DNA from: Candidatus Methanoperedens sp. BLZ2
Lineage (GTDB): Archaea; Halobacteriota; Methanosarcinia; Methanosarcinales; Methanoperedenaceae
NCBI RefSeq assembly: GCF_002487355.1
Contig: NZ_NTMG01000068.1
Span: 62,001-126,000, forward strand
Reading direction: 5' to 3'
Length of the DNA stretch: 64,000 nt
How positions within the stretch are numbered: position 1 is the stretch's first letter; each line of letters starts with the position of its first letter. The notes beneath the pieces are model-generated. The model did not search any database. It worked only from the letters and a program-made list of their open reading frames with translations, and had not been told where the DNA came from. Position numbers and translations under genes: made by a program. Below, one piece after another: positions 3,039 to 63,610 of this stretch.

Positions 3039-4208
3039 TTAATTTTTCACAAACCTGCCCAGAAAAGGAGTCTTTAATTCAATGGCATTACCTGGACACA
3101 GTTCCTGACAGCAGTAACATCTGATACATTTCTTATGATCAAATGAAGGATAGTCTTCTTTTTTTGATATCGCACCAGAAGGGCAGTGTTCCATGCATAT
3201 CCAGCATTTTTTGCATTGTTGTCTTACCAGTTCAGGTTTTGCAACCAGCATACTGCGAAGGAAACGCATCAGACCCCTTGCACGGAAAAATGATGCAGTA
3301 CCCGAAGGAAGTTTGAAGTCCTCAATTTGCATGTCCTTCATATCCTCTCCAGATACATCGATATGGGAAATATCTCCAGTTCCCATGCCCTGTTCGTGTG
3401 CCAGGCGGGTGGAAGGTACCATGAACGGGTCTATACCGATCATCTTGCAGGCCACTGCATCAAGTGCCACAGGGTCACAACTTGCCAGAATTGCATTGAC
3501 CTGTCTTGGCGTGCCGTTGCTGGGTCCGTTCCCTTCCATACCAACAACTGCGTCCATTACTGTCAATTCAGGCCGCACTATGCCAAGTAGATCCACAAGC
3601 ATCTGGGAAAATGTTTCCGGGTCCTGGGCACGAAGATGCATTTTTGCTTTATTGAGACCTGTTACACAGCCGAAATTATTTTTCACCCCTCCGGTAAATA
3701 ATGTCAGCCCGTGGGTCTTGAGTTTTGGTAAAGATATCAGCACATCAGCTTCCTGGACCTGCTTTGATAAAATGAAGCTCTTGAATATGCGGCCACCGGG
3801 ATTTTTTACCTCGATAGACTCTGCACTGAGATGCAGGATCCGGGCTCCTTCTTCCTCGCATACTTTCATAATACCGGTATTACGACATGCTGCAATGTAT
3901 CTTTTATAATTTGGCCCCCCCTCATAGCCGCTGCAATCGCCAACCTGGGGGATGCCCCCGGCTGCTTTAACCTGACGTATCATAGCCCGAACAATCGCCG
4001 GATGGGTGGTAACTGCTTTTTCAGGAACATCACCTGTCAGGAGATTTATCTTCAGAAGAACACGATCATCGGGTTTAACATAGCTTTTAATTCCGCCAAT
4101 AAGCTCCAGTGCCTTTTCAACCGCAGCATCGATATTTGATTGACCATAGGTCTGGCACCTTACAAGCGATACTGTAGAAAGATTACTGCTCTCAGTTTGC
4201 TTTTCCAT
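3039..4208 (-). CDS. DUF362 domain protein with C-terminal two-[4Fe-4S] ferredoxin module
   Basis: Residues about 25-280 match the DUF362 family (GDCSGYEGGPNYKRY, LPKLKTHGLTLFTGGVKN, DAVVGMEGNGPSNG). The C-terminal 60 residues hold two ferredoxin motifs, CKKCWICMEHCP and CIRCYCCQELCP, each able to hold a [4Fe-4S] cluster. DUF362 ferredoxins are common in methanogens and anaerobes; a defined substrate is not known for most, and an electron-transfer or reductase role is inferred. There is no signal peptide or membrane helix. At 389 residues it has the usual length for the fused form. It is divergent from the F390 synthetase-like gene across a 186-base gap, which probably holds both promoters. 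Confidence 0.88.
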   Translation of the reverse strand: MEKQTESSNLSTVSLVRCQTYGQSNIDAAVEKALELIGGIKSYVKPDDRVLLKINLLTGDVPEKAVTTHPAIVRAMIRQVKAAGGIPQVGDCSGYEGGPNYKRYIAACRNTGIMKVCEEEGARILHLSAESIEVKNPGGRIFKSFILSKQVQEADVLISLPKLKTHGLTLFTGGVKNNFGCVTGLNKAKMHLRAQDPETFSQMLVDLLGIVRPELTVMDAVVGMEGNGPSNGTPRQVNAILASCDPVALDAVACKMIGIDPFMVPSTRLAHEQGMGTGDISHIDVSGEDMKDMQIEDFKLPSGTASFFRARGLMRFLRSMLVAKPELVRQQCKKCWICMEHCPSGAISKKEDYPSFDHKKCIRCYCCQELCPGNAIELKTPFLGRFVKN

Positions 4209-4394
4209 ATTTTACTTTACCCATCCTGACACTTTTTTATTTTATTGTATTGGGGTTTATTTGAATTGAAATGGCAATAAAATAAGTAACGGGCTTGCAC
4301 TGTCATCCTATTAAAACTGCTCTACGATAATGATATAGTTAACGCCTGCATATCAATAGGAAACCATATTATTCTTGAGGTTGTATCTGTTATT

Positions 4395-5738
4395 GTGTTC
4401 TTTAATGAAAAAATAGAGACCATGAGTAGGGGAGATCTTGATTCGCTAATAGAAGAGCGTATACGCTATACTGTCAAGTATGCCAGCGAAAACTCGCCTT
4501 TCTATAAAAAGTGGTTCAAGGAGCACGGAATAAATCCATCCGATGTGCGCACACATGAAGATCTTCGGGAATTGCCCATAATATCTGGCAAAACAATAAG
4601 AGAGTACCAGCCGCCGGAAAGTACAGATTTCCAGTTCAGAAGTGTAGACTGGAGGGAGGTTTTCACACTTCATGAGACATCAGGAACAAGCGGGACTCCA
4701 AAAGCATTCTTTCTCACATGGCAGGATTGGGAACGGTATGCTGAAAAATATGCGAGGAGCTTTGTCTCACAGGGTTTTGGCCCTGGCGATAGGGTGGTTG
4801 TTTGTGCGTCATATGGCATGAACATCGGCGCCAATACAATGACCCTTGCTGCCCGTGAAATTGGTATAACGATCATCCCGATAGGAAAGTGCACATTTCC
4901 ATCCCGCGTCATAAAGAATTATAAGCCCACCGGGATAGTCGGGAGCGTTTTCAAACTGCTGGCTCTTGCCAGGCAGATGAAAAATGAAAATATCCTTCCT
5001 CAGGAATCAAGTATCAGGCGCCTTGTTGTCGGAGGGGAGAGTTTTGCCGATGAGTCGCGTGCATACCTTGCCGAGATGTGGGGTTGCCAGGTCTATAACA
5101 CCTACGGGAGCACGGAAGGAACGATGTGCGGTGAGTGCACCGATCTGGGTGGGCTCCACGTGCCTGAAGACCTGGTTCACCTTGACATCTATGATCCTGC
5201 ATTGAAAAACTTTGTACGCGATGGTGACTGCGGCAGGATCGTCCTTACAACGCTTTTGCCAGTAGGTGGAAAATCCGGTACCCTGTTGCTGAACTATGAT
5301 ACCGAAGACACTACAGCTGTGATCACAAGGAAACGATGCGCCTGCGGCAGGACTCATATGAAGATCATGAATCCCCAACGTGAATCTGAGACCTTCTGGG
5401 TCGCAGAAACTCCCTTTAACCGTGTGGATGTGGAGCGGGGAGTATTCCAGCGCGAGAATATGGAATACCTTACAGGGGAATATGAGGCATTCCTTTATGG
5501 CGGCGATGATGAAGGAGAGACGATTTTGAGAGTGAGCGTTGAATGTCTTGACAGGGATAAGTGTGACAGAAAAGCTGTTGAAGAGAACTTCCTGCGGACA
5601 TTTTTCAGATATAAGCCGCTCCTTGAGCAAGTACATGCAGAAGGAATGTTCAAGATCATTTTCAACTTTGCAGGTCTTCGGGATCTGGAACTCTACCGGA
5701 TAAAGGGCAGACCAAAGCGCCTGGTTGATAGAAGATAG
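4395..5738 (+). CDS. Coenzyme F390 synthetase-like AMP-forming adenylate enzyme (phenylacetate-CoA ligase family)
   Basis: The protein has the adenylate-forming core of the phenylacetate-CoA ligase/F390 synthetase group: HETSGTSGTPKAFF near residue 95 (phosphate loop), GGESFADESR near 214, YNTYGSTEGTM near 234, and a RCACGRTH segment near 313. In methanogens F390 synthetase adenylates or guanylates the deazaflavin F420 as an oxygen or redox signal. The length of about 447 fits that family. Two starts are possible: the GTG at 4395 and an ATG at 4422; a purine run GAGG lies near 4377, so 4395 is kept without strong support. The TspO gene follows 34 bases later. Substrate (F420 versus an aryl acid) cannot be told from the sequence. 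Confidence 0.8.
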   Translation: MFFNEKIETMSRGDLDSLIEERIRYTVKYASENSPFYKKWFKEHGINPSDVRTHEDLRELPIISGKTIREYQPPESTDFQFRSVDWREVFTLHETSGTSGTPKAFFLTWQDWERYAEKYARSFVSQGFGPGDRVVVCASYGMNIGANTMTLAAREIGITIIPIGKCTFPSRVIKNYKPTGIVGSVFKLLALARQMKNENILPQESSIRRLVVGGESFADESRAYLAEMWGCQVYNTYGSTEGTMCGECTDLGGLHVPEDLVHLDIYDPALKNFVRDGDCGRIVLTTLLPVGGKSGTLLLNYDTEDTTAVITRKRCACGRTHMKIMNPQRESETFWVAETPFNRVDVERGVFQRENMEYLTGEYEAFLYGGDDEGETILRVSVECLDRDKCDRKAVEENFLRTFFRYKPLLEQVHAEGMFKIIFNFAGLRDLELYRIKGRPKRLVDRR

Positions 5739-7833: not shown

Positions 7834-8565
7834 TCATATTTTCTGTTTTCTTCCGTATGGGCACACATACAAACACAACCCGCAGACTGCTATCTCATTT
7901 TTTTCTTCCATGGAATCAAAATACTGGTCACATTTTCTTGCATCAAATCTTTCTTCTCGTGGTTCGTTCGATCTGAATGGTCTCCCTGTGATCGCATGTA
8001 TCGGGCAAATGTCAATGCACTCTTTGCAATCTCCACATTGTTCCTGCTGCATCTTTCCGGTAGATTCAAGTGGTGCATCAGTCAGTATAGTTGCCCAACG
8101 GACTCTTGGTCCGCATTCTGGCGTGATAAATAAACAGCTCTTTCCGATCCATCCCAGTCCGGCCAGATCAGCACCCAGCTTATGTGAGAAAGATGCACAA
8201 ACACGTTCATCATCTACACGCTTTGAGGAAGGAATCGGTAAGGCCCTGAACCCGGATTTTTGGAGATAACCGCTAATAACCGAAGCTGCAAGATCCAGCC
8301 GTAAATTAACTATATCATAAGCGTTATGACGGTAGCTCACTCTTACCGCTTTTTCATTTCGCTGTGGCAAAAGATCAACAATTGGATTAAGCAGGGATAT
8401 CCCAATAGAGATTGAGAAAGGAAAGCCAGCTATGAAACTGCCTCCCTGTTCAAGTATAGCCGTATGGGCTTGTGAAAGATCTGCAACACCAAAATGGTCA
8501 GCTCCATTAATAGATGCTAAATTGTGTAGTTGTTGATTCAAATTCCTGTTATTCTTAATTAACAT
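7834..8565 (-). CDS. QueG-like (epoxyqueuosine reductase-related) double [4Fe-4S] protein
   Basis: The protein has the layout of QueG-related iron-sulfur proteins: an N-terminal alpha/beta part with RVSYRHNAYD, a conserved AGLGWIGKSCLFITPECGPR segment near residue 133, and two cluster motifs, CGDCKECIDICP near 173 and CGLCLYVCPYG near 228. QueG reduces epoxyqueuosine in tRNA using cobalamin. This protein has only 243 residues, shorter than bacterial QueG, as are many archaeal paralogues whose substrate is unknown. It is of interest because queA and a bacterial-type tgt lie at 23-25 kb, but it is not linked to them and may have another role. The ATG at 8565 is the first in frame. Confidence 0.7.
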   Translation of the reverse strand: MLIKNNRNLNQQLHNLASINGADHFGVADLSQAHTAILEQGGSFIAGFPFSISIGISLLNPIVDLLPQRNEKAVRVSYRHNAYDIVNLRLDLAASVISGYLQKSGFRALPIPSSKRVDDERVCASFSHKLGADLAGLGWIGKSCLFITPECGPRVRWATILTDAPLESTGKMQQEQCGDCKECIDICPIHAITGRPFRSNEPREERFDARKCDQYFDSMEEKNEIAVCGLCLYVCPYGRKQKI

Positions 8566-8803
8566 GATCTTCCTACTCTATTTAAAATAGTAAATGTTCG
8601 TATGCACTTAAATGTTGCTGACCACTACAGACATCATCATGAAAAAAAGAGCGTGCGAAGCGCTCACCGCCCAAATTATAAAGGATATAAACAACTACCT
8701 CTAATAATTCGTCGTGAACGCGAAAAATATAAACCAAATATGCACTTTGATTGTGTTGATCCTGTTATCCAAAATTGTAAAACAAAAGAGGGATAAAAAC
8801 TAA

Positions 8804-9616
8804 TTGAAAACAAACATGATTGTTGAACCAATAATAGAAAATGATATTCACTATCTTCGAGAATTACAACCTGATGGCTGGCCAGATATAATACCAATAT
8901 TCGAACATTATCTAAATATTCCCTTTTGCAGACCAATTAAAGTTGTTATTGAAAATAAAATTGTTGGTATAGGAACTGCGATCTTATTGAATAATTCAGC
9001 CTGGTTAGCTCATATTATAGTAAATACGGAATTTAGAAGAAAAGGAATAGGAAGCTTGATAGTTCACCATTTATTGGGAAATTTTAAAAAAATTGGTTTT
9101 GAAACAATTTCATTGATTGCAACTGATATGGGATATCCGATTTATAAAAAAGCAGGTTTTAAAGAACAAACAGAATATGTTTTCTTTGAAAGAAAAGAAC
9201 CGTTAAAAGATTATTATAGATCAAAAAATGTTGTTCAATATACAAACACAAATATTGAGAATATATTTTTTTTAGATAAAATTGTAACAGGCGAAGATAG
9301 AAGAGTATTGTTAAATGATAAATTAGAGAATTCTTATGTTTATCAAGAAAATGGAAAGCTAACTGGTTATTATATACCAGGATTAGGAGAAGGTTTGATT
9401 ATTGCTGATAATGTAGAGGCTGGGATTGAATTAATGAAATTAAGATATTCAATCATAAACAAAGGAGTTTTACCAATTGATAATATTGAAGGTATCAAAT
9501 TTCTCAAAGAAAATGGATTTTTAGAAATAAAAAGAGCGAAAAGAATGATTTTGGGAAAGGAATTTTCATGGCAACCTGGTAAAGTATTTAATAGAATAGG
9601 TGGAAATCTTGGGTAA
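8804..9616 (+). CDS. GNAT family N-acetyltransferase, two GNAT-like halves
   Basis: Residues 1-135 are a GNAT domain with the acetyl-CoA pyrophosphate-binding motif VNTEFRRKGIGSLIVHHLL and a following YKKAGFKEQ segment. Residues 140-270 look like a second, degenerate GNAT half (acetyltransferase domain 18 arrangement), ending with a GIKFLKENGFLEIKRAKRM segment. The substrate cannot be predicted. The TTG at 8804 lies 11 bases behind a GAGGG ribosome site; an ATG at 8816 in the same frame is an alternative. The gene is strongly AT-rich with many AAA/ATT codons, unlike its neighbours, which suggests recent transfer. It stands alone, with 238 empty bases upstream. Confidence 0.75.
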   Translation: MKTNMIVEPIIENDIHYLRELQPDGWPDIIPIFEHYLNIPFCRPIKVVIENKIVGIGTAILLNNSAWLAHIIVNTEFRRKGIGSLIVHHLLGNFKKIGFETISLIATDMGYPIYKKAGFKEQTEYVFFERKEPLKDYYRSKNVVQYTNTNIENIFFLDKIVTGEDRRVLLNDKLENSYVYQENGKLTGYYIPGLGEGLIIADNVEAGIELMKLRYSIINKGVLPIDNIEGIKFLKENGFLEIKRAKRMILGKEFSWQPGKVFNRIGGNLG

Positions 9617-9703
9617 CCTGTATCTGCGAACCGTTATCTACCATTACTCATATTTTTCAATAAAAATGTAGCATAGCTACAGCTGAACTAAGCATATGGA
9701 AGT

Positions 9704-11464
9704 TCAAACTCTCCATTTAATTGGATAAAATATTAAACCAGTTTTAGAATTCTCAACCTGAATGCTGATATCCCCCATCAAATGGGTAGCATTTCCAGGA
9801 GACAGATCAATCGGATCTTTATTCCTGAGTTCAATTGTACCGTTTTCAACAGAAATTACTTCCATGGCGCCGAAGGTAACGCCTTTCCCGATCTCGACAA
9901 TATCCTGGGACCTGAGCCATGCATATTTGAAATCTACTGCATCCGATTCAGGTAACGAGCGCATGTTGGAAATGTAAGTAACAAAGATTGGAATGCTGTA
10001 ATTTGCATCCCCTGGATAGGTATAAGTATATATCTGTGGGAAAATTACATTTTCAATTATATTATTATCCTTAAAAAGTGAAAACCATCCCTGCCTTCCA
10101 GTAGCCTTTGCAGCTATTGAATTGATATAAATCTTATACCCCTCTCCAAATTTCCATGTCTCCCCTGTGACCATAGTTTTCAGTTCAGTAGCGTTTTGTT
10201 CTAAAATTATCCTCGCAAGCCTGTCTCCAGGCAAACACACATATTTTTCACCCAGCCAGCCGATTGCAGAATAATAACCATCTATGCCGGACGGAGTTAT
10301 GTTGGCATGTGCATAGACATTGTACTTCAAAAGTACCGGGCTTGTTGTATATATCAGGTTATGTTTCTCTATAACCCTGTGGGTGGTATTCAATACGTTT
10401 TGATCTATTACCAGTGTTTCAGTTGAGGTATTTGTCCCAGGCTCATGCCAGAAGCCTGTAAAATTCTCCCCACTCCATCGTTTCGTAAGGTTCCCGGCAC
10501 TTTCGTCAAAAGCCTTTCCTGCGAAATATTTCACAAGAGGCTTTCGTGGAGTTATGGCCATTTTAAATATTTTCTTTTCTTCAAGGTCGATTGTATAGCG
10601 GACTATTTCTCCAGGTCTATCTGGTTCTCCAATGTCCACAGTGACAACAGGCAAAAAGCCATAAAAATTCTGAAGATCGTAGGTCTCTGATGAAATTTCG
10701 GTGATATTATACTTCCTGCCCTTTAGATATGAATCATTGATTGCTATTGCTTTCGCATCCTCTTTTTCAGTATAATTTAAGGGAGGGGACTCGTATCTTT
10801 CATAACCTATGTTCCACGTTCCCATATGCAGCAGCTTCTCTTCATCTTCGCTTCTCCCCTGCAAATCCATCTTTGTGCCTTTACCGATCTTAAAGGACAA
10901 TATACCGTTCCCGACCTGTAAATCTTTATATTTTGCAGCCACAAGTATGTAATAACTTCCATCAGCAGCTTTAGGACTTATATTGATCGTCAGATTGGAA
11001 TACAGTAGCTTCTCGGGTACATCCCATCCTTTGATGGTTTGCTTGAAGACCAACATCTCCTTATCGGGGATTAACTCAACAACGCCGGAATTGGATTCAA
11101 AATGACCATCCGTGTGCAGCAGCAGTGTTTTATAGTCAAGGGAGATCCCAGTTCCTTTGGTGATATTGTTACCGCTTATGAAAAGTTTGAGATTAGTCGA
11201 CGTTCCCCTATAAACAGGCGAGCTAATCGACTCAACGCCAATTATTACAATATTGGGGATTGTAACATTACCTTCAATTCTTTCGAGGGAGTCATAGTCT
11301 GTCAGATTGACTTTTAATATCCCGGGCTGTTGTGATACGCATCCTGATAGTATCGTAAATCCAATGGTTGAGACAAGTAGCATCGACTGAAAAATTCTGG
11401 ATGGTTCACTCTCACACTTCATCCATTTCATACCTTTCACTTTTTCGAATGTCAATTTGGCCAA
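9704..11464 (-). CDS. S-layer-domain lipoprotein of Methanosarcina type
   Basis: The N-terminus has a hydrophobic stretch followed by LSGC (Cys42), a lipobox, so the mature protein should be lipid-anchored on the outside of the membrane. The C-terminal 230 residues match the S-layer duplication-domain family of Methanosarcina surface proteins: EKYVCLPGDRLARIILEQN, then WKFGEGYKIYINSI, then a YPGDANYSIPIFVTYISN stretch. Only one copy is seen, where true S-layer tiles have two. The middle holds extracellular beta-type sequence with many N-glycosylation-like NxT/S sites. TTG at 11464 is chosen because ACAGGAG lies just upstream. It closes a minus-strand surface cluster (14061 to 9704). It may be a minor S-layer-associated protein, not the main lattice protein. 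Confidence 0.82.
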   Translation of the reverse strand: MAKLTFEKVKGMKWMKCESEPSRIFQSMLLVSTIGFTILSGCVSQQPGILKVNLTDYDSLERIEGNVTIPNIVIIGVESISSPVYRGTSTNLKLFISGNNITKGTGISLDYKTLLLHTDGHFESNSGVVELIPDKEMLVFKQTIKGWDVPEKLLYSNLTINISPKAADGSYYILVAAKYKDLQVGNGILSFKIGKGTKMDLQGRSEDEEKLLHMGTWNIGYERYESPPLNYTEKEDAKAIAINDSYLKGRKYNITEISSETYDLQNFYGFLPVVTVDIGEPDRPGEIVRYTIDLEEKKIFKMAITPRKPLVKYFAGKAFDESAGNLTKRWSGENFTGFWHEPGTNTSTETLVIDQNVLNTTHRVIEKHNLIYTTSPVLLKYNVYAHANITPSGIDGYYSAIGWLGEKYVCLPGDRLARIILEQNATELKTMVTGETWKFGEGYKIYINSIAAKATGRQGWFSLFKDNNIIENVIFPQIYTYTYPGDANYSIPIFVTYISNMRSLPESDAVDFKYAWLRSQDIVEIGKGVTFGAMEVISVENGTIELRNKDPIDLSPGNATHLMGDISIQVENSKTGLIFYPIKWRV

Positions 11465-53526: not shown

Positions 53527-54711
53527 ATGAGAAAAGCCTACCAATTCAGGATATACCCAAACAAGAACCAGGAAGTCAAACTGAATAGTACACTTTCCAC
53601 ATGCAGACACTTATATAATGATGCTCTTGCCCAAAGAAAACGACAAGCGGAGCTAAACAATCTATGTAGAAGTTTTGATGTTTGCCTCTGGGGAAAACCA
53701 GAATGGATAACGTATCGTGACCAGCAAAACACCCTTCCTGGCAATAAAACCAATTTTCAAAAAGAAGTATTCTCCCAGGTGCTACAAAACACCCTGAAAA
53801 GAGTGGATACCAGTTTCAAGAATTTCTTCAATGGGTTTGGATATCCAAGATTCCAGGGAAGGGGTAGATACAATTCATTCACATATCCACAAGCTGGTTT
53901 CAGGATTGAAGATGGAAGAATCAAACTCTCAAAAATCGGAGCTATCAAGATCATCCAGCACAGGGAGATAGAAGGCAAGATCAAGACATGCACGATCAAG
54001 AAAGACATAGATCAATGGTATGTCATGCTCTCAACCGAAATTGAGAAGCCCATACTTCCAGTTGAGACAAAACAATCAATTGGCATAGATGTTGGTCTAA
54101 GTTCACTACTGACAATGAGCAATGGAAGCCAGATAGAACCGCCTGAGTTCTTGAGATCATCAGAAAAGAAAATGGCAAAAGAGCAGATCAGGCTTTCAAG
54201 AAAAAAGAAAGGAAGCCATAACCGAAAGAAACAGGGCAAAATAGTAGCACGAACTCACAGGACAATCAGGAATCAGAGAAAAGATTTTGCTCATAAAACA
54301 TCCAGAAAACTGGTAGATACCTATGATAAAATCGTATTTGAGGACTTGCAGGTCAAGAACATGATGCAGAATCATCACCTTGCTAAGTCAATATCAGATG
54401 CAGGATGGTATCAGTTGATTCAACTCACAAACTACAAAGCAGAATACGCTGGTAAGATTGTGGAACAGGTCAATGCCAGAAACACATCACAGAATTGCAG
54501 TCAGTGTGGCAATCCGGTACCAAAGAAACTTTCAGTAAGGATGCATTCATGTCCTTTCTGTGGTCTTGTCATGGATAGAGACCACAACGCTGCAATCAAT
54601 ATACTATCAAGATCAAAGAATACCGCAGGAACTGCGGAAATAAAAGCCTGCCCGAGCAATCTAAGCATAGACACAATGAAGCAGGAAGCTCCGTCCTTAA
54701 GGGCGGGGTAG
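53527..54711 (+). CDS. tnpB: TnpB RNA-guided nuclease, canonical catalytic site
   Basis: 394 residues. Start region MRKAYQFRIYPNKNQEVKLN is typical. The RuvC triad is complete: D188 in IGIDVGLSSLLT, E272 in IVFEDLQVKNM, and the DRDHNAA motif beginning at residue 350. The zinc finger has CSQCGNPVP and CPFCG. The C-terminus ends EAPSLRAG, as in many TnpB whose stop lies in the right end. The protein differs clearly from the one at 16730, although the elements share ends. It should be an active guide-RNA nuclease. The ATG at 53527 follows the second copy of the TTGTCAAGATCAC repeat. Confidence 0.92.
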   Translation: MRKAYQFRIYPNKNQEVKLNSTLSTCRHLYNDALAQRKRQAELNNLCRSFDVCLWGKPEWITYRDQQNTLPGNKTNFQKEVFSQVLQNTLKRVDTSFKNFFNGFGYPRFQGRGRYNSFTYPQAGFRIEDGRIKLSKIGAIKIIQHREIEGKIKTCTIKKDIDQWYVMLSTEIEKPILPVETKQSIGIDVGLSSLLTMSNGSQIEPPEFLRSSEKKMAKEQIRLSRKKKGSHNRKKQGKIVARTHRTIRNQRKDFAHKTSRKLVDTYDKIVFEDLQVKNMMQNHHLAKSISDAGWYQLIQLTNYKAEYAGKIVEQVNARNTSQNCSQCGNPVPKKLSVRMHSCPFCGLVMDRDHNAAINILSRSKNTAGTAEIKACPSNLSIDTMKQEAPSLRAG

Positions 54712-55909: not shown

Positions 55910-56336
55910 AATTTTTATGAAAAAGCGTAATTGCTCTTTCTTTCTAACCTCTTTAATTTATATTTAAAACAATTAAGAGCTATAAACACAACTTTGTAAA
56001 AGTTCTTATTAATTTTCTACTTAAAAGCTTTATGACAATTTGCTTAACTATTTTTTATATAGTTAAGTTGGGCGTAATATGAGTTTAAGAGATGATAAGC
56101 TTTTTGTACTATGAGAAGCTAGCCTGAAATTCAAAACTGCTGCAACATACATGTATGGGCTAATGAAACTATGCGAAACTGTACATGAAAATCCAATACA
56201 GCGTACAGAAGAAGCGAGAAAAAGATTATCTGGCTTTCCGGTTTTTATTTGGGGATAATAAATGTAGTTGATTATAATGGATTAAAGAAATCTAAGTTCT
56301 GATCTATCAGGCCAAAATAAAAATCAAAATACTTAA
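55910..56336. other. Intergenic region with one open fragment
   Basis: No intact gene. A plus-strand frame at about 56116-56258 is open for KFKTAATYMYGLMKLCETVH and ENPIQRTEEARKRLSGF before TAA; it looks protein-like but begins at a stop, so it is probably a fragment of an unknown gene. A TATA-type TTTTTTATATAGTTAAG lies near 56050. The 3' end carries A/T-rich promoter DNA of the TetR gene. Confidence 0.4.
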
Positions 56337-56389
56337 ATATGACTTGGGGTCATATATGACTATAAGTCATATCAGACTAAAAGTCATAA
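56337..56389 (+). promoter_or_regulatory. Three tandem palindromic operators of the TetR operon
   Basis: Three overlapping 19-base sites repeat every 17 bases: ATATGACTTGGGGTCATAT (56337-56355), ATATGACTATAAGTCATAT (56354-56372, perfect inverted repeat around ATA), and ATCAGACTAAAAGTCATAA (56371-56389, one arm imperfect). They end 10 bases before the first possible start of the TetR gene, so binding would cover promoter and start. This layout fits cooperative autorepression by the TetR protein. No other copy of the site was noticed in the window. Confidence 0.78.
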
Positions 56390-56399
56390 TTGTTAAGAG

Positions 56400-56990
56400 A
56401 TGGTAATTATGTCCCTGCGTGATAAAAAGAAGATCGAAACAAAGAATAAGATTTTCGAAGTGGCGGGAAGATTATTCAAGGAAAAAGGGTATGACAACAC
56501 AACTATTGATGAGATAACAAAAGAAGCCGGGATAGGTAAAGGTACATTTTTTAACTATTTTCCAGCCAAGGAAGCGCTTCTCCAGGATTTCGTTAAGCAA
56601 AAGGAAGAGCTTGTCTTTGACCTGGTAAAAGATCAATTAACCCGAAAAATATCCACAAAAGAAAAGATAAAAAACATACTTATTCTCGTGGCAAAGAGCA
56701 ATGAAAAAGACAGGGAGCTTACAAAATTATTCGTTTTTGAGCATTTGAAACATTATGGACATGAAGAAAGAAGGAGCACCAGCCTTAATCATCTCATTCA
56801 GGTCATATTGGAGAAGGGTGAAAAAACAGAGGAATTCAAGATCGGTTTGGATTCTAAAATGGCTGCCGGAAATTTAACGGCCATCTATTTTTATTCGTTG
56901 TTGGAATGGTTATGGTCAAAGAACGAATATTCTTTTTCAGAGGACATATCAAAAAAAATTGATATGATATTTGATGGTATTGGAAGGTGA
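56400..56990 (+). CDS. TetR/AcrR family regulator
   Basis: 196 residues (193 from an ATG at 56409, MSLRDKKKIE). The N-terminal 55 residues are the TetR HTH domain: TKNKIFEVAGRLFKEKGYDN, TTIDEITKEAGIGKGTFFNY, FPAKEALLQDFV. The remaining helices make the ligand-binding and dimer domain (LTKLFVFEHLKHYGHEERRS). It should bind the three operators at 56337-56389 and repress its own gene and the two genes that follow, released by an unknown small molecule. Its stop is four bases from the GTG of the PEP-synthase-like gene. Confidence 0.92.
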   Translation: MVIMSLRDKKKIETKNKIFEVAGRLFKEKGYDNTTIDEITKEAGIGKGTFFNYFPAKEALLQDFVKQKEELVFDLVKDQLTRKISTKEKIKNILILVAKSNEKDRELTKLFVFEHLKHYGHEERRSTSLNHLIQVILEKGEKTEEFKIGLDSKMAAGNLTAIYFYSLLEWLWSKNEYSFSEDISKKIDMIFDGIGR

Positions 56991-56994
56991 AACT

Positions 56995-59670
56995 GTGAGT
57001 GAGAAAAAGGAAAAATATTTTCTAAACTGGGAAGAATCTGCCAATTCTTGCCCAGCAGAGGTAGGCGGCAAGGGATTGAATCTGGGACGATTGCATCGAT
57101 ATGGTTTTTCAGTGCCTGGCGGGGGTGTTTTGACATCTCCTGCATATCGCGATTTCCTGCAGTTTAACAACCTGACAGGATCTATTAATGCTGCATGCGA
57201 TATCAGGGCGGAACTCGTAAATGATCCGGTTAATGAAAAGAATCTGGAAGAGATCAGGCGAAATATCAATGAAGGCCAGGTACCCGTAACCGTCCGGCAG
57301 GAACTGGCAAAACAACTTGAAGGCACGAAACTACTTGAAAAACCTGTGGCAGTCCGGTCATCAGCAACAGCTGAAGATTCTGCAACGGCATCATTTGCCG
57401 GAGTCCATGAGTCATTCCTGAATATCATGGGAATAGAGAATATAGTCAAAGCAATAAAGGGCTGCTATGCTTCCCTCTGGACACCACGTGCAGTTGCCTA
57501 CAGGCGCAAAATGGGATTGACTGATGATGAGGTGGCAGCAGCTGTGGTTATTATGGAACTTGTGCCTGCGGTGGCATCCGGGGTGGCTTTTAGCTGCGAT
57601 CCGCTGACAGGGCGGTGCGACAGGATCGCCATCAGCGCCAATTTCGGTCTGGGAGAGTCGGTAGTAAGCGGCGCAATCGATCCGGATGAGTACCTGCTGC
57701 AGCCAATGGCTGAGCTGCCTGAAATAGTTGAGAATAAAATCGGCAGCAAGAAGAAATATACAAGACTTGTGCAAAGCGGTGGCACGGAACTTGTAAGTGC
57801 GGGCAGTCAAGAAAACAGCGATAAACGACCTGTTCTCAATGATAATCAGATCATAGAAATGGGCTCGCTGACGCTGCGGGTATTCGAAGCTCTAGGCAAA
57901 GGTGTGGTCAATCAGGATATAGAATGGGCATTCGATGGAAAAAAGTTTCATGTACTGCAAGCAAGACCAGTGACAAATCTCAGAGAACCTACACCCCCGG
58001 AACTGGAAGGTCAGCCTGTTATCTGGTCCAATGCCAACATAAAAGACGCTGCACCAATGGTACTTACAGCGCTTTCCTGGAGTTTTTTTCGCGGCTCTCT
58101 CGATATGATGATGAATGCCAGCCTACTGGCAGCAGGCTATAGGATGCCTGAAGGAACGAGCTGGGTGCGGCTTTATAAAGGCAGGGGATATTTCAACCTG
58201 TCTGCCCTTCAGTGGGGTTTATATGATGCGCTCGGTTATCTGCCTGCAGAGATTAACGCCAGCCTGGGCGGTCACCAGCCCGAGATAAGAGTACCCCCTG
58301 GCAATCCTTTTGGAGGACTTGCGGGAATTAAACGGGTCTGGAGGCGGATGCATCTTATCATCAATGTTCTCAGGACACAGTATTCTTCAAAAAAGATCTT
58401 TAAGGACATGTGGGAAACAGTTGAGCTATGGAAGAAGCAGGATTTCCATGCAATGAACGATCAGGAACTAATCTCTCATTTCTCTGAAACCAATCCGAAA
58501 ATTCTTGAGTATTGTTCCACCTATATGGTTCTCGGCCTCTCAACAGGTGTTTCTTTGTATTTTCTTGTACAGGCACTGGAGAAGGATTTCCCGGGTCGCG
58601 GTGCTGCCCTGGCAAACGGTTTGCTCGCCGGCGCTTCGGAAATAACAAGCGCTGAACACGGCTACAGGCTTATGGAACTGGGAAAGACAGTTCAGATGGA
58701 TAAAGTTGCTCTGAGGTACTTTACTGCTGAACCTTTCAGACCATCGGCATGGAAGGATGAAATTCCCGGAGGTTCACAGTTCCGGAGGGAGTTCGAAGAA
58801 TTCTTGAAGGACTACGGTCACCGCGGGGTCTATGAAATAGACTTGTTGAATCCGCGCTGGGGCGAGGATCCGCGATATTTACTTGAAATCATCAGGGCAC
58901 AGGTGATGTCGCCCGCAAATATTGATCACAGGGCGGTTCAGGAAGCAAAACGCAAAACTGCAGAAAAGGAGATCGCAGGCAAACTCAAATGGGGCTTGCG
59001 GCGGCTCACGGTCAGTAGGCTCATCAAGCAGGCAAGGGATAACGCAGGCACCAGGGAAATGGGAAAATCCGTGCTCGTAAAACCATTTGAAGTTTCACGT
59101 ATGTTTTTTCAGGAGCTGGGGCGGCGTCTTGTGGAACGAGGGGTACTGGATGAACAGGCTGATGTTTATCACTGCGCCTGGCACGAACTTTCGGCGATCC
59201 TGGCAGGATACTCTGATGGCAGCGGGTTGAAGGTACTGGTGGAAGAAAGAAAAAAGATGCGGGAGGAATTATCCCTTCTGGAGCCTCCTGATGTTATAAT
59301 AGATGATGCGCCTCAGCCAAAAGCCGGGGCGCCTGAAGCACACGGGCAGGTGCTGGCAGGCATTGGTGTGGCAGCAGGAAGAGCTTCTGGCAGGGCGCGG
59401 CTGATCCGCCATCCCGGGGAAAATACCCGGCTGCAGGCTGGAGACGTTCTCGTAGCTCCATCCACAGACCCGGGCTGGACGCCGTTGTTTTTAAGGGCAA
59501 ACGCTCTGGTTATGGAAGTGGGCGGCTCTCTCTCCCATGGGGCTATTGTCGCAAGGGAATACGGAATTCCGGCGGTGGTCAATGTGCCTGGGGTGATGAA
59601 GGCTTTGAAAGATGGAGAACAGCTTACAGTTGATGGTGATGAAGGAAAGGTATATCGTAAACAGGAGTAG
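56995..59670 (+). CDS. Rifampicin phosphotransferase-like / PEP-synthase-family enzyme
   Basis: GTG at 56995 follows GGAAGGTGAAAC and gives 891 residues; the earlier ATG at 56971 lies within the TetR gene. An N-terminal PPDK-type ATP-grasp domain (to about residue 330) has VGGKGLNLGRLHRYGFSVPG, KPVAVRSSATAEDSATASFA, and DIEWAFDGKKFHVLQARPVT. A long helical middle domain ends with FLKDYGHRGVYEIDLLNPRW, typical of rifampicin phosphotransferase (RPH). The C-terminal swivel domain holds the phosphohistidine in GGSLSHGAIVAREYGIPAVV (H848). RPH has this three-domain order and about 870 residues. Archaeal RNA polymerase does not bind rifampicin, so another substrate is expected. Cotranscribed with the radical SAM gene (three-base gap). 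Confidence 0.86.
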   Translation: MSEKKEKYFLNWEESANSCPAEVGGKGLNLGRLHRYGFSVPGGGVLTSPAYRDFLQFNNLTGSINAACDIRAELVNDPVNEKNLEEIRRNINEGQVPVTVRQELAKQLEGTKLLEKPVAVRSSATAEDSATASFAGVHESFLNIMGIENIVKAIKGCYASLWTPRAVAYRRKMGLTDDEVAAAVVIMELVPAVASGVAFSCDPLTGRCDRIAISANFGLGESVVSGAIDPDEYLLQPMAELPEIVENKIGSKKKYTRLVQSGGTELVSAGSQENSDKRPVLNDNQIIEMGSLTLRVFEALGKGVVNQDIEWAFDGKKFHVLQARPVTNLREPTPPELEGQPVIWSNANIKDAAPMVLTALSWSFFRGSLDMMMNASLLAAGYRMPEGTSWVRLYKGRGYFNLSALQWGLYDALGYLPAEINASLGGHQPEIRVPPGNPFGGLAGIKRVWRRMHLIINVLRTQYSSKKIFKDMWETVELWKKQDFHAMNDQELISHFSETNPKILEYCSTYMVLGLSTGVSLYFLVQALEKDFPGRGAALANGLLAGASEITSAEHGYRLMELGKTVQMDKVALRYFTAEPFRPSAWKDEIPGGSQFRREFEEFLKDYGHRGVYEIDLLNPRWGEDPRYLLEIIRAQVMSPANIDHRAVQEAKRKTAEKEIAGKLKWGLRRLTVSRLIKQARDNAGTREMGKSVLVKPFEVSRMFFQELGRRLVERGVLDEQADVYHCAWHELSAILAGYSDGSGLKVLVEERKKMREELSLLEPPDVIIDDAPQPKAGAPEAHGQVLAGIGVAAGRASGRARLIRHPGENTRLQAGDVLVAPSTDPGWTPLFLRANALVMEVGGSLSHGAIVAREYGIPAVVNVPGVMKALKDGEQLTVDGDEGKVYRKQE

Positions 59671-59673
59671 AAA

Positions 59674-61041
59674 ATGAAAATATTACTGATACAGCCGGCG
59701 AAAGCCCAAAAAACGATCGGTGGAGAGGATGTTTTTATTTATGAGCCGCTTGCGCTCGAATATCTGGCTTCAGGTGTAAAAAGCGATCATAACGTAAAAA
59801 TACTTGACATGCGGATTGACAAAGACCTTGATTCCCAGATGCAAAAATTCAGGCCGGATGTTGTCGGGATCACTGCATATACTGTTCATGTGAATACGGT
59901 CAAAAACCTTTTTAATAAAATCAAAACAATTGACTCCGGTATCTTTACCGTTGTTGGCGGCCATCATGCAACGGTTGCGCCTGAGGATTTCTTTAATCCC
60001 TGTATTGATCTTGTAGTAATGGGAGAAGGAGTTTTTGTATTCAAGGAAATAATTTCAAGGCTTGTTTCAAAAAGACCCTTTGATGGAATTGCCGGAATAT
60101 CTTATTTGAAAGATGGAGGGAGGGTAATCAATCCTCGTGAACCGGTAACCGACCTTGATATCTTTCCTTTCCCATCCAGAGAATTTACGGAAAAGTACAG
60201 GAAATACTATTACAGTGAATGGATGAGACCGCTTGCATCGATACGCACATCAAAGGGGTGCCCGAACAGGTGTAATTTCTGTGCCCTGTGGAAGCTGACA
60301 GGTGGAAAATATCTGAAAAGAAAGCCGGAAAACATTGTCAGGGAACTTTCCGGGATCAAGGAAAAATACGTTTTTTTTGCAGATGATGAATCCATGGTTG
60401 ATGCCAGCAGGATGAAAAAACTTGCTGAACTGATCAGGGAAGCCGGGATTAAAAAACGTTATTTTCTATATGGAAGAAGCGATACGATCGTAAAAAACCC
60501 GGACCTTATTAAAATATGGAAAGATATCGGACTTGAAAGGGTCTTTGTGGGGCTTGAATTTTTCAGGGATGAAGACCTTAAATATATCAATAAAGGTTCA
60601 ACTGCAGAAAATAATAAAGAGGCAATAAAAATATTGCACTCAAATGGCATAGAGATATATGCATCGTTTATTGTCAGGCCGGATTTTAATGAAGAAGATT
60701 TTAAAGAATTAAAAGAATATTGCAGGAAAATGGAGTTCACTTTTCTAAGCTTTGCTGTTCTTACTCCATTACCAGGGACAGATTTGTATGAAGAAGTTAA
60801 AGACAGTCTCATTACTGAGGATTATGACCTCTTTGATTTTATTCATACCCAGCTTCCAACAAAACTCCCTTTGAAAGAATTCTTCAATAATCTCAATTCG
60901 TTGTATTTCGATACAATACCTCTGGGAAAGAGTATTTCATTTATGAGGAGATATCCATTGAAAGAAATACCGGGTTTGATCTCTCTTAGAATGAAAGTTG
61001 CAAGGCAGATGAAGAATGCATATAAGGATTATGAAACATGA
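59674..61041 (+). CDS. B12-binding domain radical SAM protein
   Basis: 455 residues. Residues 1-140 form a cobalamin-binding Rossmann domain (MKILLIQPAKAQKTIGGEDV, then DVVGITAYTVHVNTVKNLFN, VVGGHHATVAPEDF). The radical SAM core follows with the cluster motif KGCPNRCNFCALW (C196, C200, C203), and FADDESMVDASRMKKLAELI. Members of this class carry out C-methylation and related steps on lipids, antibiotics or cofactors. The SAM-domain end has FLSFAVLTPLPGTDLYEEVK. Third gene of the TetR operon, three bases after the PEP-synthase-like gene. Substrate unknown. Confidence 0.9.
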   Translation: MKILLIQPAKAQKTIGGEDVFIYEPLALEYLASGVKSDHNVKILDMRIDKDLDSQMQKFRPDVVGITAYTVHVNTVKNLFNKIKTIDSGIFTVVGGHHATVAPEDFFNPCIDLVVMGEGVFVFKEIISRLVSKRPFDGIAGISYLKDGGRVINPREPVTDLDIFPFPSREFTEKYRKYYYSEWMRPLASIRTSKGCPNRCNFCALWKLTGGKYLKRKPENIVRELSGIKEKYVFFADDESMVDASRMKKLAELIREAGIKKRYFLYGRSDTIVKNPDLIKIWKDIGLERVFVGLEFFRDEDLKYINKGSTAENNKEAIKILHSNGIEIYASFIVRPDFNEEDFKELKEYCRKMEFTFLSFAVLTPLPGTDLYEEVKDSLITEDYDLFDFIHTQLPTKLPLKEFFNNLNSLYFDTIPLGKSISFMRRYPLKEIPGLISLRMKVARQMKNAYKDYET

Positions 61042-61109: not shown

Positions 61110-61490
61110 TTATACTGTCTTTATCTCAAACCCTTCGAACATCTTTCTCATAACCAGGTCCTGAATCGACCCAAAACCTGAAGTGGCGATAATCTTCCCG
61201 TCCAGGTCATCAATAGACCGAATGTCAGAACCTGCCCTCACGATCAGTGCGCTGCCACCTGAATTTACTCCACTGATAATGTATATTCTTCCATTATCAT
61301 TTATCCAGTACCTCAAAAGCGGGGTCACACCAAACGTGGCAATGTCAACTTCCCTGTGAGTGAAAGCATTCGTTATTGCCAGGCCGTTCCTGAATTTCAT
61401 GAACTTGATATTTTTACCGGGGATCAGGCCGACTTTTTCAAAGTACCCTTCTTCCTGTGCTACATAAACTGCAAGGTAATGGATATTACG
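61110..61490 (-). pseudogene. Truncated ABC-transporter solute-binding protein (NitT/TauT-like)
   Basis: The minus strand is open from 61490 to the stop at 61110 and reads HYLAVYVAQEEGYFEKVGLI, NAFTHREVDIATFGVTPLLR, SALIVRAGSDIRSIDDLDGK, and IIATSGFGSIQDLVMRKMFE. This is the first third of a SsuA/NitT-type substrate-binding protein; the signal peptide and the C-terminal 180 or so residues are missing. It starts at a stop codon immediately behind a truncated small frame, so two genes have been joined by deletion. The frame starting with ATG at 61400 gives 96 residues and cannot be a functional binding protein. Confidence 0.65.
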
Positions 61491-61907: not shown

Positions 61908-62150
61908 TTAGTTAGATCCTTTTTAAATATATTTGCGTATGTATTCATATAGTTATGCTTTTGTAATCATAAGACTATGTGTAATTATATAGAAATTATA
62001 TTGTTTTATCTTACTAATATATGTATAATAAACACCAACTTGACGATTAATAGTAAAGATTATGTATTAAGATGTTCTAATTAAGATTGAGTTTTGTCTT
62101 GTCAGAGAACTTACCTGAAAACGAGTGGAATATCGTACAGGAGGATTAAA

Positions 62151-62876
62151 ATGAATAGAAAAGAAATGAATTCAGACAGAAGAACAGCGATAATTGTGGG
62201 TGTATTCTTCCTTCTTGGGTTTGCAGGCGCATTCAGCGCTGTTATTTTGAAACCCATACTGGATGACCCAAATCTTCTTATTAATTTAACCAGGAATAAA
62301 AACCTGGTGATGTTGGGAGCGTTCCTCGAGTTAGTTATGGCATTTGCATGCGCGAACATTGCAATTTGGCTGTATCCAGTCTTAAAAAAACATAACAAGT
62401 TCCTGGCTCTTGGAGCGGTTGGTTCCCGAATTATTGAGAACGTATTCCAGATTGTTGCTACACTCGGCCTGCTAATATTACTGACACTAAGCCAGGAAGC
62501 TGCAAAAGCAGATGCTCCTGCTGCTTCCACTTTTCAAACAGCAGTTGCTTTGCTGCTCGCAGTGCGTTTTTGGGCGCCCTTAGTGTTGGCACAAATCGCT
62601 TTTTGCCTGGGCGCTTTGATGTATTACTATGTGTTTTACCAATCAAAACTCATTCCAAGGTGGCTGTCGGGTTGGGGCATCGTTGCGATCATATTACATT
62701 TGACTTCAGTCTTCTTGACGATGTTCTTCCAAATTAATCCCTTTTCGGGGTCACCAATCATATTATTGAGCATACCTATATTCTTCCAGGAACTGACACT
62801 TGCAGGATGGCTGATAGTTAAAGGATTCAATCCGTCCGCACTCGCTTCCGGGTCTGCCAAAGTAGATATGAGCTAA
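62151..62876 (+). CDS. DUF4386 membrane protein, copy 1
   Basis: The ATG at 62151 follows AGGAGGATTAAA, so the 19 upstream codons are not used. 241 residues, six transmembrane helices. DUF4386 signs: RRTAIIVGVFFLLGFAGAFS, LLINLTRNKNLVMLGAFLEL, WLYPVLKKHNKFLALGAVGS, a YYVFYQSKLIPRWLSGWGIV loop, and the end WLIVKGFNPSALASGSAK. The family's role is unknown. The next gene is a close paralogue 11 bases away, hence tandem duplication. Confidence 0.85.
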   Translation: MNRKEMNSDRRTAIIVGVFFLLGFAGAFSAVILKPILDDPNLLINLTRNKNLVMLGAFLELVMAFACANIAIWLYPVLKKHNKFLALGAVGSRIIENVFQIVATLGLLILLTLSQEAAKADAPAASTFQTAVALLLAVRFWAPLVLAQIAFCLGALMYYYVFYQSKLIPRWLSGWGIVAIILHLTSVFLTMFFQINPFSGSPIILLSIPIFFQELTLAGWLIVKGFNPSALASGSAKVDMS

Positions 62877-62887
62877 GGAGAGATAAA

Positions 62888-63610
62888 ATGAATTCAAACA
62901 AAAAAATCGCAAGAACTACAGGAATATTGTTTATCATTGCGACGGCTGCAGTTCTACTGGGTAGTGGTCTTACGGAATCCATCGTGGGTGCTCCGGACTA
63001 CCTTGTTCAGATTGCTGCAAACAAGAACCTGGTAGCGCTGGGTGCGATTCTTTACTTTGTCGCGGCTGCCGGAAGTGCCGGCATCGCGATTTCGCTGTAC
63101 CCCGTCTTGCGGAAATACAATGAAGGTCTCGCTATCGGGTCAGTTGGTTTCAGGCTTATTGAGGCGGTGTTCTATATTGTGAGTGCACTCGGCTTGCTTT
63201 CTCTGCTGTCATTAAGCCAGGAATATGCAAGCGCAGAGCCTCAGGCAGTTCCAACCTTTCAAGTCCTGGGCACCTCGATTCTGGCAATGCGTGTTTGGGC
63301 GGGTTTCGTGCTTGCAGTGATTGCCTTCTGCCTGGGCGCAGCTATGTACTACTACGTTATGTATCGATTTAGACTCATCCCACGATGGCTATCAGTATGG
63401 GGTCTGGTCGCGCTCACATTGTTGCTCTTGATGACTCTATTGATCGCATTCGGCGAAAGAATTTCAGGACCTTCAGGCATGCAGGTGTTGTTGGTTCTCC
63501 CGATCCTTGTGCAGGAAATGGTTCTGGCGGTATGGCTGATAGTCAAAGGATTCAATCCATCGGCAATCGCCTCAGGGTCGCCAAAAACCGATACAAACGA
63601 GGTAAAATGA
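62888..63610 (+). CDS. DUF4386 membrane protein, copy 2
   Basis: 240 residues and the same six-helix layout as the preceding protein: KIARTTGILFIIATAAVLLG, LVQIAANKNLVALGAILYFV, SLYPVLRKYNEGLAIGSVGF, YYVMYRFRLIPRWLSVWGLV, and WLIVKGFNPSAIASGSPK at the end. An AAGGAGAGATAAA ribosome site precedes the ATG. Side by side with copy 1 and followed by an alcohol dehydrogenase-like gene after 29 bases, all in one direction; such DUF4386/oxidoreductase sets occur in bacteria too, so gene transfer is possible. Confidence 0.85.
   Translation: MNSNKKIARTTGILFIIATAAVLLGSGLTESIVGAPDYLVQIAANKNLVALGAILYFVAAAGSAGIAISLYPVLRKYNEGLAIGSVGFRLIEAVFYIVSALGLLSLLSLSQEYASAEPQAVPTFQVLGTSILAMRVWAGFVLAVIAFCLGAAMYYYVMYRFRLIPRWLSVWGLVALTLLLLMTLLIAFGERISGPSGMQVLLVLPILVQEMVLAVWLIVKGFNPSAIASGSPKTDTNEVK

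Follow-up and report, generated by a model that had tools for sequence, protein, structure and literature searches.

A TetR-linked operon of an RPH-like dikinase and a B12 radical SAM protein in Candidatus Methanoperedens, possibly an inducible protection against a toxic small molecule

Gene order and promoter of the operon

The window, a 64,000-nucleotide stretch of contig C43 in a 3.74-Mb genome whose relatives are Candidatus Methanoperedens, carries a tetR-family gene followed on the same strand by genes for an RPH-like dikinase and a cobalamin-binding (B12) radical SAM protein. The genes are separated by gaps of 4 bases (tetR to the RPH-like gene) and 3 bases (the RPH-like gene to the radical SAM gene). 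This order and the gaps agree with the initial annotation of the locus, and Pfam recognizes B12-binding and Radical_SAM domains in the third product. That the stretch is archaeal is supported by the orthologues of the operon genes, which sit in Ca. Methanoperedens.

Table 1 Positions in the window of the operon, its promoter features and the exchangeable segment
Feature	Position	Strand	Basis or remark
TATA-like box CTTAAATA	56332..56339	+	Sequence; overlapped by operator 1
Operator 1, strong 19-bp palindrome ATATGACTTGGGGTCATAT	56337..56355	.	Sequence, genome-wide motif count, shuffles
Operator 2, strong 19-bp palindrome ATATGACTATAAGTCATAT	56354..56372	.	Expected transcription start approximately here
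Operator 3, degenerate (weak) palindrome ATCAGACTAAAAGTCATAA	56371..56389	.	17 bp after operator 2
tetR-family gene, putative autorepressor, 196 aa	56400..56990	+	TetR_N 2.8e-16; orthologue alignment
RPH-like dikinase, 891 aa, GTG start	56995..59670	+	Pfam, residue alignment, predicted structure
Exchangeable substrate-domain segment of the dikinase	57694..59352	+	Block identities, segment tests; approximately ORF residues 241–794 counted from TTG 56971
B12-binding radical SAM protein, 455 aa, HpnR-like	59674..61041	+	Pfam B12-binding and Radical_SAM, NCBIfam, predicted structure

Of the three tandem 19-base palindromes that had been reported ahead of tetR, two are strong and the third is degenerate but lies exactly in phase, the spacing being 17 bp throughout, and the array overlaps a TATA-like box (Table 1). 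A double operator site arose in none of 100 shuffles of the window, and the whole 3.74-Mb genome has just two exact copies of the motif TATGAC-N5-GTCATA, which both lie in the operator 1–2 region before tetR. Across 10 Methanoperedens loci, the window's included, a (C/T)TTAAATA or ATTAAATA box is conserved ahead of tetR, and each tetR promoter carries one to three phased operator sites. Because the motif is unique in the genome and the box and sites are conserved before tetR, the regulator most likely serves its own operon alone. The protein combines a TetR_N domain with a palindromic operator at its own promoter, as expected of a TetR-family autorepressor, and alignment of orthologues makes ATG 56409 its probable start, giving a conserved MSLR. 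Operator position, genome uniqueness and conservation thus support the TetR-controlled operon that had been proposed.

Three further observations concern the surroundings in the window. An IS605-type TnpB/OrfB gene (53527–54711) lies between carB and a DEAD-box helicase gene, with none at the equivalent place in genome G005 (L037). Downstream of the operon, a 96-aa minus-strand ORF (61110–61400) looks like what is left of a gene for 346 aa, of which G004 has an intact copy (L038 11018–12058, flipped), and two similar membrane proteins of 260 and 240 aa are encoded in tandem at 62094–63610.

The dikinase and the radical SAM protein

The dikinase is laid out as an ATP-grasp domain (residues 22–332, Pfam PPDK_N), a middle substrate domain in which Pfam recognizes nothing, and a C-terminal swivel phosphohistidine domain (residues 814–884, Pfam PEP-utilizers) with His848; this is the domain order of the RPH fold, without a PEP-binding barrel. 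Its best PDB sequence matches are entries for the rifampin phosphotransferase (RPH) of Listeria, RPH-Lm (PDB 5hv1, 5fbs; PMC4844700). The top six PDB structural matches to its AlphaFold model (mean pLDDT 86) are likewise all RPH-Lm, over more than 900 columns, whereas PEP synthase matches over the ATP domain only. The two enzymes share the ATP-grasp, the large middle substrate domain and the C-terminal swivel phosphohistidine but are only about 21–26% identical in structural alignments, and the window's dikinase differs in being archaeal, in its TetR operon and in its radical SAM partner. Aligned to RPH-Lm, it keeps K26, R121, S140 (for Thr136), E310, R687, E688, K691 and H848. The RPH-Lm residues so aligned are catalytic or phosphate-holding (PMC4844700), and the set retained includes the catalytic His, Lys22, Arg117, Glu297 and the Arg666-Glu667-Lys670 phosphate network of that enzyme. 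The phosphohistidine and ATP-site residues are therefore intact, which bears out the intact phosphohistidine domain of the initial annotation.

We conclude, from sequence and predicted fold, that this is an RPH-type small-molecule dikinase distinct from PEP synthase, without implying rifampin activity. Membership of the PEP synthase clade, together with a pair not conserved elsewhere, had been named as the outcome that would count against the initial proposal, and a diverged PEP synthase of central metabolism is scarcely credible: NCBIfam subfamily names do read phosphoenolpyruvate synthase, but the protein lacks the central His domain and C-terminal PEP/pyruvate-binding barrel of such an enzyme, has its phosphohistidine at the C-terminus and matches the RPH-Lm fold over its whole length, and the genome encodes a distinct PEP synthase of 764 aa; the identity was dropped on these grounds. 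As for substrate, residues 338–550, within the region of the rifampin site, gave no significant sequence alignment to RPH-Lm, and the protein scored 417.9 bits against NF041857, the NCBIfam equivalog for rifamycin-inactivating phosphotransferase, below its 999-bit cut-off. For these two reasons the dikinase probably acts on a compound other than rifampicin, as had been suspected.

The radical SAM protein has a CxxxCxxC motif and the domains that place it in the cobalamin-binding radical SAM superfamily. Its best NCBIfam model is the hopanoid C-3 methylase HpnR (TIGR04367), at 253.3 bits against a 650-bit cut-off, and the best structural matches to its model are the B12 radical SAM methylases MgmA, TsrM and CysS, together with OxsB and AprD4. 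It shares both domains and the motif with HpnR and the B12 radical SAM methylases (MgmA, TsrM, OxsB, CysS) but falls far below every curated cut-off and is 15–19% identical to solved relatives; we regard it as a putative methylase. A phage-defence reading was dropped, as PADLOC returned only a weak radical SAM match (28.8 bits). On viral origin, a single contig with a match of 49 residues is uninformative.

Distribution of the pair and mosaic rph genes

Full-length rph orthologues occur in 11 of the 34 genomes of the family, and the radical SAM gene in seven. An intact radical SAM gene stands behind rph at six of the 11 Methanoperedens rph loci (in G028 with an esterase gene between), and decayed remnants stand there at three more: in G012 a 98-nt stretch at 93% with stretches of 23 and 41 nt behind it in the expected order, in G006 40 nt and in G001 67 nt. 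Behind rph in G024 and G019 we found no radical SAM trace (2/11 loci). In G022 (L047 2550–3875), the ORF of a HerA-like ATPase ends in the last rph codons, directly before an intact radical SAM gene, and this junction reads as the scar of rph loss by recombination. From the phylum, 345 genomes yielded no further close RPH orthologue and a radical SAM relative only in G189 (41%), in searches that scored the best two to four candidates per genome and may have missed weaker homologues. G189 has two copies of this relative (L210, L211), each beside a second radical SAM gene and one near a geranylgeranyl-reductase-like gene, possibly for lipid modification.

Two loci, L049 (G027; reverse strand, ORFs 8365–10666 flipped) and L050 (G002; 3565–5319 flipped), encode an RPH-like protein of 571–584 aa with substrate and His domains and no ATP domain. 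By analogy with HpeH, such a protein would need a separate ATP-grasp partner. In G027 the gene is preceded by a tetR that has this same TATA/operator box, and MacB-type genes follow it.

Outside the archaea, the nearest RPH relatives lie in Pelotomaculum, Sporomusa, Desulfosporosinus, Gammaproteobacteria and Acidobacteria, at about 41–50% full-length identity. These uncharacterized genes are of the same subfamily and have tetR upstream wherever this is readable (one gene away in Desulfosporosinus), but none has a radical SAM gene beside it, and their accessory genes are others; in one bacterial locus an ABC exporter lies downstream of tetR–RPH. The gene that separates tetR from the RPH-like gene in Desulfosporosinus nitroreducens (L143 6155–7243) is for a protein of the acyl-CoA:6-aminopenicillanic-acid acyltransferase family.

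The closest relatives found for the radical SAM protein belong to the genus of Desulfosporosinus nitroreducens, in which two genomes (G410 and G389) carry a tetR–RPH–radical SAM triad in the window's gene order, with RPH and radical SAM genes that overlap by 4 bases. The radical SAM protein of the triad is 47–51% identical to the window's, whereas its RPH (806–807 aa) is only 28% identical and its TetR has no detectable similarity beyond family level. Four further bacterial genomes (G381, G413, G797 and G757) have tetR–radical SAM without RPH. Because each enzyme also occurs alone with tetR, yet the two stand together in a pair of far-removed lineages whose RPH proteins are of different subfamilies, gene order provides good evidence of a functional link between them. 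A neighbourhood search had been suggested as the check on the pair, and it finds the pair conserved within Methanoperedens and in these two Desulfosporosinus-genus genomes; none of the papers that our searches on archaeal RPH, NuoB self-resistance and archaeal HpnR turned up describes it. G410 also has a second radical SAM relative (44%), encoded between two PaaK-like ligases (L222) in a biosynthetic-looking cluster with an acyl-AMP ligase, an HMG-CoA-synthase-like protein and an enoyl-CoA hydratase.

Per-block DNA identities give residues 1–120 and 240–790 of rph different histories. Between the sister species G000 and G024 (rpoB 97% nt), tetR is 92% identical (aa) and the rph start 88% (nt), against 64% (nt) for the substrate segment (p=6e-20) and only about 56% for the substrate domains. 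Between G000 and G004 the rph start is 60% and the substrate segment 94% identical (Fisher p=6e-52), and G004 and G012 have the chromosomal locus and rph start in common but not the substrate segment (p=5e-18); the segment tests behind these p values work within one gene pair and treat sites as independent, and the conflicts far exceed ordinary rate variation. The Methanoperedens rph genes fall into four substrate-domain classes. MAG chimerism is an unlikely cause of the mosaic, as the two main classes each recur in independent assemblies and class B is present in Ca. M. nitroreducens ANME-2d. Nor is the radical SAM gene tied to class-A substrate domains, as had first seemed: intact copies also accompany class B (G011) and class D (G028), with remnants behind classes B and C. 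The radical SAM gene, 90% identical (nt) between G000 and G011 against 76% for rpoB, has also been transferred between species.

Pelotomaculum (L138 2305–11894) has two tetR–RPH units plus RPH fragments. The second of these tandem copies is N-terminally like the first and has a substrate domain like that of Sporomusa, so mosaicism extends beyond the archaea. We infer that exchange of the substrate domain under a constant regulator is the behaviour expected of genes chasing variable toxic compounds, not of housekeeping genes.

Sister-operon cargo and the proposed function

Sister operons in G011, G019 and G028 carry an extra NuoB/FqoB-like gene, for subunit B of F420H2:quinone oxidoreductase, between tetR and rph. 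Other cargo includes an HSL-type esterase (G028, with leader remnants in G030, G006 and G001), a CrtI-like oxidoreductase (G011 and G019) and genes of a MacB-type exporter; none of FqoB, esterase and exporter is encoded in the operon of the window itself.

The three operon FqoB copies keep their Cys motifs (metal ligands) in the alignment but depart from 12 housekeeping copies in the pocket. At NDUFS7-equivalent positions, numbered to allow for one extra residue, Thr59 becomes Met or Trp, Met69 Gly or Tyr, Phe86 Gly or Ala, and Gln92 His, with the Met70 equivalent changed to Leu in two of the three; the altered positions are invariant or nearly so among the housekeeping copies. All three operon copies lie outside the housekeeping set at 13 columns, which comprise six of 12 quinone-loop positions and seven of 123 elsewhere (Fisher p=1.6e-4), in a test that ignores shared descent among only three, partly related copies and takes its loop set (58–60, 69–70 and 86–92) from PMC7567858 with the alignment already in view. 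The corresponding loops of mammalian complex I form part of its piericidin site; Thr59, Met70 and Phe86 are listed among the residues close to piericidin, and variants at Met70 are reported to be resistant to DQA and rotenone (PMC7567858). In Methanoperedens, Fqo is probably the enzyme that reduces menaquinone (PMC4683180). The operon FqoB of G028 (L046 6124–6690, flipped) has an in-frame TAA 17 codons early, with the codons beyond still readable.

Our preferred reading, to which we give a probability of roughly one half, is that the operon is an autoregulated, inducible protection against a toxic small molecule. To judge by their position and conservation, the two or three palindromes, which cover the TATA box and the start site, would let bound TetR block its own operon; binding of the compound, or of some related signal, to TetR would open it. 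In the dikinase, His848 would take up the beta-phosphate of ATP and pass it on to a hydroxyl group on the compound, which would be held in the exchangeable middle domain; this mechanism is carried over from RPH-Lm, whose catalytic residues have counterparts here. The B12 radical SAM protein may modify the same compound a second time, most likely by C-methylation. In sister species the operon has also gained an esterase, a CrtI-like oxidoreductase, an exporter of MacB type or an FqoB that may replace the target subunit. We lean to resistance because tetR–rph occurs without the partner in bacteria, because sister operons encode exporters and an esterase as well as a quinone-site subunit with altered residues, and because substrate domains are swapped. 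The initial annotation had offered a resistance, lipid or cofactor pathway; the first of these is now favoured, and the radical SAM protein, for which HpnR is the nearest though distant model, may still modify a lipid or cofactor. To our knowledge, a radical SAM detoxifier would be unusual.

The main rival, which we think unlikely but weightier than the others, is a biosynthetic or tailoring operon in which the RPH-like kinase and radical SAM protein modify an endogenous molecule (a quinone, isoprenoid lipid or secreted natural product), with FqoB, exporter and esterase serving product use, export and self-protection. The nearest named relatives of the radical SAM protein, HpnR and BchE, are biosynthetic, RPH-like enzymes include the biosynthetic ligases PigC and RedH (NCBIfam), one Desulfosporosinus-genus radical SAM relative sits in the L222 cluster, and an altered FqoB could serve a modified quinone. 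Yet scaffold-making genes are absent from every locus examined, occurrence is patchy (11/34 genomes), tetR–rph and tetR–radical SAM are also found alone, and the substrate domain is swapped while the regulator stays unchanged.

The genes might instead be two unrelated inducible enzymes brought under one promoter by an accident of gene shuffling, the kinase detoxifying one compound and the radical SAM protein acting independently. Each does occur alone behind a bacterial tetR, and five of the 11 Methanoperedens rph loci have kept rph and lost the radical SAM gene; but the pairing recurs in the Desulfosporosinus genus with another RPH subfamily and TetR, and remnants show that the pair is the older arrangement in most Methanoperedens loci, which makes accident improbable.

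Less probable again is a role in catabolism, in which the operon would activate an aromatic compound at its hydroxyl so that it can be degraded. RPH-like enzymes do include catabolic phenol kinases: HpeHI, CreHI and phenylphosphate synthase (PpsAB) likewise use a swivel phosphohistidine to carry phosphate from ATP to an aromatic hydroxyl, differing in that they are two separate proteins within degradation pathways (PMC12167813), and the genus and its bacterial relatives include anaerobes. The Methanoperedens loci, however, hold no carboxylase, ring-reduction or CoA-ligase genes, and a radical SAM partner is not known from such pathways.

Returning to protection against a toxic compound, the quinone site of F420H2:quinone oxidoreductase is one plausible class of inhibitor target, and our leading guess at odds well short of even, because the sister FqoB subunits are altered at quinone-pocket residues. 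The fullest form of the proposal is a cross-domain, inducible two-enzyme module in which a respiratory inhibitor of the quinone site is modified first by an RPH-type kinase and next by a B12 radical SAM methylase. Some archaea would also have a substitute FqoB, and the kinase's substrate domain would be a cassette swapped between species, with the regulator and the beginning of the ATP domain left in place; that all of this holds together we consider doubtful. The parts are of known kinds, and what is new is their combination, its recurrence across domains and the domain swapping.

If the protective reading is true, anaerobic methane-oxidizing archaea would be under enough pressure from toxic chemicals to select for drug-modifying enzymes that are inducible and swappable, and few examples of this facet of archaeal ecology are known. 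Through the altered FqoB subunits the target class is open to direct test, and the RPH–radical SAM pair, which archaea and Firmicutes both have but with RPH of different subfamilies, might point the way to a new substrate for each superfamily.
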